Part shown: piece after piece, positions 33,665 to 35,582 of the stretch
Layout of the letters: each line of letters opens with the position of its first letter
How positions within the stretch are numbered: position 1 is the first letter of the stretch
Assembly: GCF_000732195.1 (NCBI RefSeq)
Contig: NZ_JNNU01000002.1
Span: 806,001-870,000, forward strand
Source: Neorhizobium vignae
GTDB taxonomy: Bacteria; Pseudomonadota; Alphaproteobacteria; Rhizobiales; Rhizobiaceae
Direction: 5' to 3'
DNA: 64,000 nucleotides
Position numbers and translations under genes: made by a program
Notes under the pieces: model-generated
The model's database searches: none
What the model was told of the DNA's origin: nothing
What the model saw: only the letters and a program-made list of their open reading frames with translations

Positions 33665-33691
33665 GGAACGAAACCGAGGCCAAGGTGTTCC
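33665..33691. promoter_or_regulatory. Interlocked divergent EcfG-type promoters
   Basis: Plus strand: GGAAC (33665-33669), 18 bases, TT (33688-33689), driving the EEP gene. Minus strand: GGAAC (33691-33687), 18 bases, TT (33668-33667), driving the ybhN-like gene. Each -35 element contains the complement of the other's -10 TT, so the two promoters occupy the same 27 bp. Confidence 0.7.
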
Positions 33692-33698
33692 CAGCGCC

Positions 33699-34469
33699 AT
33701 GACGGATCAGACAGCACCATCGCCCTCCACGGCCCGCCTCACCCCCGCAAGGCATCGCCTGAAAATCCTGAGCTACAATGTGCATAGCTGCATCGGTACC
33801 GATCGCCGGCTCGACCCCGCCCGGGTGGCCGAGGTCATTGCCGCCCTGGAACCGGATATCATCGGATTGCAGGAATTGGATGTCGGCCGAAGCCGCACCG
33901 GCGGCATCGACCAGGCGCATACGATCGCCTCGTTGCTACAGATGGAATTCCACTTCCACGCGGCGCTCAACGTTGCCGAAGAGCGTTACGGCGACGCTAT
34001 CCTGACGGCCTTGCCGGCAAGGATGATCAAGGGTGCCGGCCTGCCCTCGCATGGCGAGCAGCGCGGTGCGGTCTGGGTGGAAATAGAGGTCGGCGAGCAC
34101 AAGCTGCAGGTCTTCAACACTCATCTCGGCCTGCTGGGCGGCGACCGGATGCGCCAGATCGGCGAGATTCTCGGGGCCTCCTGGATGGGTAGCCCGGAAT
34201 GCCAGGACCAGCCGAAGATCCTGATCGGCGATTTCAACGCCATTCCCGTGACCGGAACCTACAAGGCCGTCGCCCGCCAGATGGCGGATGCGCCGCTCCT
34301 GAGCGGGACGAAGCCCAGGGCCACCTTCCCATCGCGGTTTCCGCTTCTGAGGATCGACCACGTCTTCGTCTCCAGCGAAATCACCCCGGTCGCGACTGAG
34401 GTCGTTTCGACGCCGCTTTCCCGCCAGGCCTCCGACCATCTGCCGCTCCTGGTGACGGTCGAGCTTTGA
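33699..34469 (+). CDS. Endonuclease/exonuclease/phosphatase (EEP) family protein, YbhP-like
   Basis: The 256-residue protein has the EEP-fold motifs ILSYNVHSC (about 22-30), GLQELDVGRS with the metal-binding Glu, NTHLGLLG, GDFNAIP, RIDHVFVS and the terminal SDHLPL His. Such enzymes hydrolyse phosphodiesters in nucleic acids or lipids (sphingomyelinase-type). Its pairing with phospholipase D and YbhN homologues supports a lipid role. The ATG lies only about two bases after the expected transcription start of the interlocked promoter, and no in-frame start follows before the core motif, so a leaderless mRNA is likely. Confidence 0.88.
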   Translation: MTDQTAPSPSTARLTPARHRLKILSYNVHSCIGTDRRLDPARVAEVIAALEPDIIGLQELDVGRSRTGGIDQAHTIASLLQMEFHFHAALNVAEERYGDAILTALPARMIKGAGLPSHGEQRGAVWVEIEVGEHKLQVFNTHLGLLGGDRMRQIGEILGASWMGSPECQDQPKILIGDFNAIPVTGTYKAVARQMADAPLLSGTKPRATFPSRFPLLRIDHVFVSSEITPVATEVVSTPLSRQASDHLPLLVTVEL

Positions 34470-34472
34470 TCC

Positions 34473-35156
34473 TCAGTGGGACAGGGTCCGGCTGAGCCGC
34501 CGGGCCTCCTTCAGAAGACGCACCACGTCCTGGTCCGTCGTCTCCGTGAAGTCGCCGTAGTGCAGGCTGACCGCTTCCATGCGGTCCGGCGCAGACAGGC
34601 AGACGATATCATCCACCTCTTCCTGCAGCGCTTCCAGCAATCGGCGGGGCGCGACGGGCACGGCGATCCGGATCGATGCGACACCCATGTCCTTCAAGGC
34701 ATGAATGCCGGCGCGGATCGAGACGCCGTTGGCAATGCCGTCGTCGACGAGAATGATGTCGCGGCCCGTGTGGTCATGCTCGCTCGGCTCGTCCTCGCCG
34801 AAATACATCCGGTGGCGGCGCTCGATTTCGGCGAGCTGATGCTCGCGTTCCGCAGCAAGATAACCGGGCGGCACGTGGAAATGGCGCGCAGCCTCCTCGT
34901 TGACGACGATATGCGGCTCGCGGCCGTCGACGACAGCGCCGATGCCATATTCCGGATGACCGGGCGCGCCGATCTTGCGAACGATGAGGAGATCAAGCGG
35001 CAGCCCCAGACGTTGCGCCACCTCGAAGGCAACGGGAACCCCGCCGCGCGGCAAGGCGAGGATCACGGCATCAGGAAGCGGCGCCGCCTGCATGGCTTCC
35101 GCCAATTGCCTTCCGGCATCCTCGCGATCGATAAAGGTTGGGCTTTGACCGGACAT
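34473..35156 (-). CDS. Type I phosphoribosyltransferase-like protein
   Basis: I choose the start at 35156 (MSGQSPTFIDREDAG) because GGGAGGA lies close upstream. The 227-residue protein has the PRTase fold with ILALPRGGVPVAFEVA near the N-terminus and the PRPP-loop sequence DIILVDDGIANGVSIRAG (usually VDDGIATG). It belongs to the group often annotated as putative phosphoribosyltransferase and found beside stress genes in soil bacteria; the acceptor base is unknown. An EcfG-type promoter lies about 95 bp upstream. It is convergent with the EEP gene, leaving a three-base gap. Confidence 0.88.
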   Translation of the reverse strand: MSGQSPTFIDREDAGRQLAEAMQAAPLPDAVILALPRGGVPVAFEVAQRLGLPLDLLIVRKIGAPGHPEYGIGAVVDGREPHIVVNEEAARHFHVPPGYLAAEREHQLAEIERRHRMYFGEDEPSEHDHTGRDIILVDDGIANGVSIRAGIHALKDMGVASIRIAVPVAPRRLLEALQEEVDDIVCLSAPDRMEAVSLHYGDFTETTDQDVVRLLKEARRLSRTLSH

Positions 35157-35249
35157 ATCATCCTCCCGAGACGGTGCTACGGCATCTGCCGTTGCCCTTG
35201 GTTCGTTATGCCAGCCCCGAGCGATCATATCACCGCCGGGGCATCGGAC

Positions 35250-35274
35250 AACCTTGGGGCATGGTTTAGGTTCC
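35250..35274 (-). promoter_or_regulatory. EcfG-type promoter of the phosphoribosyltransferase gene
   Basis: On the minus strand GGAAC (35274-35270), 18 bases, then TT (35251-35250). The leader to the start at 35156 would be about 87 bases. Confidence 0.65.
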
Positions 35275-35324
35275 ACTCCGCGACCGGCTGTCCCGTTTTG
35301 AAACACGAGAATGAAAGCGAGAGG

Positions 35325-35349
35325 GGAACAAAACTCACGATCATGTGTT
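35325..35349 (+). promoter_or_regulatory. EcfG-type promoter with no protein gene: small RNA promoter
   Basis: GGAAC (35325-35329), 18 bases, then TT (35348-35349). Transcription would begin near 35357 and meet a strong terminator at 35412-35441, defining a short untranslated transcript. Confidence 0.65.
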
Positions 35350-35356
35350 CAAGACG

Positions 35357-35442
35357 GGTCGGGCGCATGACCTCCAAGCGACCGACAGCGTCATAAGTAC
35401 CCTCCCCAACTAGGCGCTTCCCTCACGGGAAGCGCCTTTTTA
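35357..35442 (+). ncRNA. Candidate general-stress small RNA, GsrN-like
   Basis: The predicted RNA is about 86 nt, from an EcfG-type promoter to a perfect rho-independent terminator. Its 5' hairpin has GTCGG / CCGAC (35358-35362 and 35382-35386) plus CGC / GCG (35364-35366 and 35378-35380) with a single mismatch between. The 11-base loop contains ACCTCC, complementary to Shine-Dalgarno sequences. The linker to the terminator contains CCCTCCCC (35400-35407), a second anti-Shine-Dalgarno stretch. Caulobacter GsrN, a sigma-T-dependent small RNA with a C-rich 5' loop, has this general architecture. Homology is inferred, not shown. No protein gene on this strand lies between 34469 and 35583. Confidence 0.65.
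35412..35441 (+). terminator. Strong rho-independent terminator of the small RNA
   Basis: An 11-bp perfect stem (AGGCGCTTCCC / GGGAAGCGCCT) with a TCAC loop is followed by TTTTT on the plus strand only, so it terminates plus-strand transcription ahead of cydA. Confidence 0.9.
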
Positions 35443-35582
35443 CCATATGCGGCGGTTCAACGCAGGGCTGCGGCATTCGGGCACGCGGCGTTGGCGCATA
35501 TTGATCTCTTGACGACCTCCGCCGATTGTCATCCCATCAGCACGGACGGACTTTTGGCCGCCGCCAGAAAAGGGATAACGCC

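Follow-up and report, generated by a model that had tools for sequence, protein, structure and literature searches.

Under general stress, the PhyR/NepR switch frees the sigma factor EcfG. Among small RNAs (sRNAs) under control of this kind, the sigma-T-dependent GsrN of Caulobacter is a point of reference, and candidates for it in the Rhizobiaceae have been named from their promoters, from transcription data and from their location at the phyR-nepR-ecfG locus, according to the available part of PMC5869019. In Sinorhizobium meliloti, the transcripts SmelB126 and SmelA018 rise on microarrays with rpoE2 overexpression, as stated in the accessible portion of PMC3616915. Also established in rhizobia are sRNAs with anti-Shine-Dalgarno (anti-SD) motifs that interfere with translation, AbcR and NfeR1 being the examples given in the available sections of PMC7143759.

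Here we analyse a 64,000-nucleotide stretch of the Neorhizobium vignae genome (the window), in which an earlier note had proposed a GsrN-like sRNA gene behind a stress promoter. We consider it likely that this segment is the gene for a trans-acting sRNA of a new, genus-level, EcfG-driven family that would repress translation under stress.

Promoter, predicted transcript and fold

The element lies on the plus strand and comprises the following features:

35325-35349, plus strand: EcfG/RpoE2-type promoter, with GGAAC at 35325-35329 (-35), N17 and GTT at 35347-35349 (-10)
35357-35441, plus strand: predicted sRNA of ~85 nt, the 5' end inferred from the promoter and the 3' end from the terminator
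35358-35386, plus strand: 5' hairpin of 5 bp, one variable mismatch and 3 bp, with ACCUCC in the loop (35370-35375)
35390-35407, plus strand: mostly single-stranded linker GUCAUAAGUACCCUCCCC (GUCAU-AAGUAC-CCUCCCC), with CCUCCCC at 35401-35407
35412-35441, plus strand: intrinsic terminator with an 11-bp stem (35412-35437), a TCAC loop and T5 (35437-35441)

The promoter is GGAAC-N17-GTT, which in other notation is the GGAAC-N18-TT of the earlier note. The expected transcript is close to the ~86 nt proposed there, and the 86-nt RNA has a predicted folding energy of -36.1 kcal/mol, compared with a mean of -21.96 for shuffles (z -4.7; 0 of 200 as good). If transcription of the window copy began at 35356 and not at 35357, a competing fold of -37.7 kcal/mol would become available and largely bury the linker. 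The 11-bp terminator and its T5 tract are in the sequence as described, the first T of the tract pairing with A35412. The sRNA terminator was absent from the output of a generic terminator scan of the window, presumably because one T sits in the stem and the rule needs five T after it.

On the minus strand opposite the sRNA, a readable SD and ATG open a 17-codon frame, MTLSVAWRSCARPVLNT, that runs from 35394 down to 35341.

The promoter pattern alone decides little, because the window holds 12 GGAAC-N16-20-GTT matches against a mean of 5.99 in shuffles, 1 of 100 of which reaches 12. Single-genome statistics are insufficient here, and the case is settled by comparison across genomes.

Conservation across genomes

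An initial DNA search of 60 genomes yielded 16 same-genus places with the element (L001-L016), each with GGAAC at a nearly equal distance; three further places that were inspected (L017-L019) lack it. A covariance model (R1) was built on the transcript part, promoter excluded, of 11 of the 16, leaving out L011, L013-L015 and the divergent L016, which MAFFT misaligned. R1 was run on all 57 genomes of the window's genus, and a second transcript-only model of 33 rows (R2) on 33 of them. At E<=0.01 the sRNA was found in 38 of the 57 genomes (37 by R1, plus G018 by R2), while neither model gave a match at this threshold in the other 19.

The promoter, which had been excluded from the models, proved to be conserved at a near-fixed offset: in 36 of the 38 genus matches, GGAAC-N17/18-GTT begins 31-33 bases upstream of the model start. 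Among genomes outside R1 training, 25 of 27 matches have the promoter at the expected offset. The background for the pattern at that offset was 186 of 214914 sampled positions (~0.0009), sampled over all loci then fetched with true sites included; since the genomes are related, the conservation counts are not independent events. The two genus matches at E<=0.01 without the promoter are G006, in which GGAAC is kept and GTT reads ATT, and G035, which has neither. A weaker match in G019 (L213, E 0.067), with GGAAC-GTT at -35, was excluded from the counts.

Outside the genus, family matches carried the promoter in 0 of 25 cases at E<=0.5 and 0 of 18 at E<=0.1 (40 distinct, 3 shared). Because the two family searches, of 111 and 297 genomes, used tighter filters and scored 41 and 15 candidates in each genome, they may have overlooked a diverged relative outside the genus. 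One place in another genus (L063), with a similar linker but without the promoter and without a matching window neighbour, was excluded.

Scanning a genome-contig collection for the exact 18-mer GTCATAARTACCCTCCCC returned 17 stretches. Thirteen of these, which partly repeat the genus genomes searched, come from Neorhizobium, Pseudorhizobium, Rhizobium or Rhizobiales, and all 13 have the promoter; the holders are N. galegae, N. alkalisoli, N. huautlense, N. petrolearium, N. tomejilense and two further Neorhizobium strains, as well as Rhizobium sp. CF080, R. populisoli, Pseudorhizobium endolithicum and two Rhizobiales bacterium records. Matches in Aneurinibacillus, Aquifex, Acetatifactor and Chloroflexi have the promoter in 0 of 4 cases and were taken as chance. 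Neither the plasmid collection nor the viral contigs gave a match to the element.

Covariation and motif conservation

Standard pairs occupy 93.6% of cells in the 33 aligned homologues, in an alignment that was fitted to the model and so favours the tested structure; in slid structures pairing drops to 38-52%. Both sides have changed at 10 of 19 pair positions against 4.7 in shuffles of the 33 rows, and in 35 cells against 9.4, neither count being reached by any of 500 shuffles. The 5' hairpin contributes 6 of 9 pair positions changed on both sides with 88.3% of its cells paired, and its mid-hairpin variable mismatch is unpaired in 20 of 32 cells. In the terminator helix, 98.2% of cells are paired and 4 of 10 pairs have changed on both sides. 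The element is more than chance: it is conserved with covariation and promoter in 36 genomes.

Conservation in relatives had been set beforehand as a test of both the loop and the terminator, and it divides them. The terminator helix covaries, but only half of the 36 homologues (18) retain the hairpin-loop motif ACCUCC, present in the window copy as claimed. The claim that the linker is complementary to ribosome binding sites fares better. Counted in the linker alone, 34 of the 36 homologues carry CCUCCC unchanged and the other two, L051 and L053, differ from it by one base; the motif is among the best-conserved parts of the linker. GUCAU occurs in 30 of the 36. The linker is also mostly unpaired by prediction: its unpaired probability averages 0.87 across the 36 homologues when three possible 5' ends are considered, and exceeds 0.8 in 26 of them. 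In diverged homologues the spacer is altered (GGGGAGGUAUCCAUGAC, GGGGAGGUUCUAUGAC) and both linker blocks are mostly kept. Self-pairing between loop and linker (AUGAC/GUCAU) is possible in some homologues only.

A plus-strand mini-ORF, MTSKRPTAS, was considered; its ATG, which lies in the loop, survives in just 9 of the 33 rows, which makes a conserved mini-ORF unlikely.

Taken as an EcfG-regulated intergenic sRNA, the locus conserves its promoter, predicted folded transcript and terminator as a unit and has no conserved ORF. Taken as an anti-SD trans-acting sRNA, it has a CU-rich anti-SD motif that is both conserved and predicted to be unpaired.

Genomic neighbourhood

To the left of the sRNA lies a cluster encoding a DUF892 protein, a PLD-domain protein, a membrane protein (with an LPG_synthase_TM match below the cut-off, 27.8 bits vs 33.4), an endonuclease/exonuclease/phosphatase-family protein and a phosphoribosyltransferase (PRT). 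The features nearest the sRNA are:

33699-34469, plus strand: endonuclease/exonuclease/phosphatase-family gene on the left side (Pfam PF03372; synteny)
34473-35156, minus strand: phosphoribosyltransferase-domain gene, the upstream neighbour (Pfam PF00156; in 22 of 36 loci)
35250-35274, minus strand: divergent EcfG-type promoter of the phosphoribosyltransferase gene (pattern match)

All 36 loci have at least one cluster gene to the left of the sRNA, in some cases separated from it by another stretch, and the right-hand flank is variable (cytochrome bd, an XRE/cupin regulator with a monooxygenase, or neither). An EcfG-type promoter on the PRT strand, between PRT and sRNA, occurs in 21 of the 22 loci with the PRT gene, and in 19 of the 22 the PRT match starts 107-135 nt away from it. 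The earlier placement of the sRNA beside a stress protein cluster is borne out to the extent that predicted EcfG-type promoters precede the neighbouring genes.

Between the divergent membrane-protein and endonuclease genes, a palindromic GGAAC-GTTCC (window 33665-33691) can be read as an EcfG-type promoter in either direction. This bidirectional arrangement is found in 7 of 7 relatives with both genes inside the locus examined, and one palindromic site may drive both divergent genes.

Predicted targets

Read as its reverse complement, the linker matches a whole translation start exactly, GGGGAGGG-UACUU-AUGAC (start region GGGGAGGGUACUUAUGAC). Because the linker complements a full translation start and both of its blocks are mostly kept, translation repression is the likely mode of action, with initiation blocked through pairing to the SD and start codon.

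Searching for the 18-mer complement of the translation initiation region with up to 3 mismatches recovered only the locus itself in the window's own genome, and in the other 15 genomes all off-locus matches have 2-3 mismatches. Two looser patterns, GGGGAGG-N3-7-ATGAC and GGGGAGGGT-N1-6-ATG, were applied to 10 genomes each, and 20 places were examined. The candidates obtained in this way are mostly unconvincing genes, several with frames of few codons, and these few-codon places are perhaps intergenic repeats. One start, GGGGAGGACGCACATGAC, recurs as an exact copy in 5 of the 10 genomes; in the 2 of these that were translated (L229, L236), by eye we take the product to be atpI-like. The start region of this gene, GGGGAGGACGCACAUGAC, matches both linker blocks, and we offer the atpI-like gene as a candidate target by way of suggestion only, without statistical support.

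A second recurring start, GGGGAGGGTCAATATGA, opens a 7-codon frame, M(T/I)LSNFD, near position 1000 of L272, L273 and L274. In L273, a gene with its own GGGGAGGGT start, presumably short-chain-dehydrogenase-like as judged by eye, lies ~100 bases beyond this frame, which is possibly a leader ORF.

Alternative explanations

The GsrN-like label first proposed did not hold. A GsrN orthologue of the genus, whose C-rich 5' loop would protect mRNAs such as katG by pairing, would share with the window RNA an EcfG-type promoter, an exposed C-rich segment and a place in a stress island, yet we regard this reading as highly improbable. The window element, at C2:841325, is ~110 kb from NepR (C2:730886) and thus away from the general stress response (GSR) locus, while a separate GGAAC-promoted RNA lies ~2.6 kb from NepR (L032:2260-2410; C2:728254-728419 in the window's own genome). 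This GsrN-like RNA has a long, very conserved C-rich 5' loop, CCCCCCGUCCCCCGCCC, and a terminator-like hairpin; all 24 same-genus genomes searched contain its sequence, each of the 24 loci inspected has the promoter, and in other families it gave one weak match among 16 genomes. Run without filters on the GSR-locus stretch, R2 did not recognise the GsrN-like gene, and a comparison of that stretch with Rfam at gathering returned no family. What stood of the earlier comparison is the overall design, a stress promoter and an exposed C-rich segment being common to both RNAs. GsrN is in addition processed to a stable 5' isoform. The window RNA carries a predicted promoter of the EcfG/sigma-T kind that GsrN has, but a conserved exposed C-rich 5' loop is lacking, as just half of the homologues keep ACCUCC and the best-kept motif is in the linker. 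Pairing to the katG leader was no better than in shuffles, by a crude test in which 290 of 300 shuffles were as good as the linker (-12.9 kcal/mol) and 68 of 300 as good as the hairpin loop (-13.3); the loop of the GSR-locus RNA behaved likewise in this crude test (130 of 300). The window RNA is very probably a general-stress-controlled sRNA that stands second beside the GsrN type and is not GsrN itself.

Two further readings were weighed. The conserved signal might be the minus-strand SD and start codon (GGGGAGGGUACUUAUGAC) of a mini-gene, perhaps encoding a leader peptide: SD, spacer and start are readable in most homologues, including one GTG start (L051), and the spacing is variable but permissible. 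This is nonetheless very unlikely, as no start follows the SD in L047, L056 and L207 and only TTG does in L062, the frames range from 7 to 35 codons with several running to the end of the translated stretch, and neither length nor sequence is kept in diverged relatives. The hairpin and T-run are moreover oriented as a plus-strand terminator, the GGAAC promoter is directed the same way, and the minus-strand neighbour PRT is found in just 22 of the 36 loci that keep the element. Alternatively, an EcfG-driven RNA could be mainly protein-binding, or be an mRNA leader or 3' end, with the anti-SD motifs incidental. In some relatives no more than ~150 bases separate the RNA from the end of the endonuclease gene match, and targets are so far candidates only, both of which fit this idea; its own promoter in 36 loci, the terminator-like hairpin, the inconstant downstream gene and the rank of CCUCCC among the most conserved linker parts argue against it, and we judge it unlikely. 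We retain the trans-acting, translation-repressing sRNA as the preferred explanation.

Proposed mechanism and significance

From the conserved promoter sequence we infer that the sRNA is expressed and EcfG-dependent, with EcfG transcribing it from GGAAC-N17-GTT. The ~85-nt transcript would consist of the 5' hairpin, the open linker and the terminator, an architecture that the covariation supports. Pairing with GGGGAGG-type Shine-Dalgarno regions would involve the open linker and, in core Neorhizobium, the hairpin loop as well, and GUCAU of the linker would pair with the AUGAC start of some mRNAs. Such pairing would block ribosome entry and lower the translation of those mRNAs during stress, the window RNA acting beside the GsrN-like RNA of the general-stress locus.

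A bolder version takes the linker to be a built antisense of the whole start (anti-SD, spacer, anti-AUG(AC)), making the RNA a stress-induced silencer of GGGGAGG-N3-7-AUGAC mRNAs, such as that of the atpI-like gene, and a second post-transcriptional layer, separate from GsrN and fast-evolving within one genus. The anti-SD and anti-AUG(AC) blocks are mostly kept and the spacer varies, while the stems change; we regard this extension as doubtful but worth stating.

In Neorhizobium, a genus that includes nitrogen-fixing symbionts, the locus is a candidate second RNA arm of the general stress response. With a defined promoter, structure and mutable motif, it makes the roles of EcfG-driven RNAs besides GsrN directly testable. 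The distribution suggests a stress sRNA restricted to approximately one genus, in genomes whose GSR-locus GsrN-like RNA is the better conserved of the two.

Comparison with known systems

Rfam at gathering returned no family in the window or in 19 homologue loci. A permissive cmscan of 35200-35550 gave suhB at 13 bits and P17 at 11.8 bits, both far under cut-off; for suhB/MmgR (RF00519) the gathering cut-off is 41, which places the RNA outside that family. R2 found no meaningful match on the S. meliloti SmelB126 (L239) and SmelA018 (L240) stretches (best 10.7 bits). Among the open-licence PMC articles listed, titles and abstract openings name no Neorhizobium EcfG sRNA, and an earlier mention in a table is possible.

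Compared with GsrN as described in the available part of PMC5869019, the window RNA is alike in its EcfG-type promoter, its short intergenic gene and a C-rich segment exposed near the 5' end. It differs from GsrN and from the Rhizobiaceae GSR-locus candidates in locus and sequence, the gene for comparison being the GSR-locus RNA of its own genome, and of its C-rich segments the linker is kept better than the 5' loop. SmelB126 and SmelA018, reported as RpoE2-dependent in the accessible portions of PMC3616915 and PMC7143759, resemble it in the RpoE2/EcfG dependence predicted for the window RNA.

The anti-SD sRNAs listed in the available sections of PMC7143759, namely NfeR1 (alpha-r14), AbcR1/2 (alpha-r15) and MmgR (alpha-r8, RF00519 suhB), have unpaired CU-rich anti-SD motifs and hairpins as the window RNA does, and the 77 nt given there for MmgR is a similar size. 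The sigma factors listed in the same sections are RpoD for NfeR1, RpoD or RpoD/RpoH for AbcR1/2 and RpoD/RpoN for MmgR, whereas the window RNA has an EcfG-type promoter. On sequence evidence, the best reading is that it represents a new family of a known kind, a genus-level, putatively EcfG-driven, anti-SD trans-acting sRNA.
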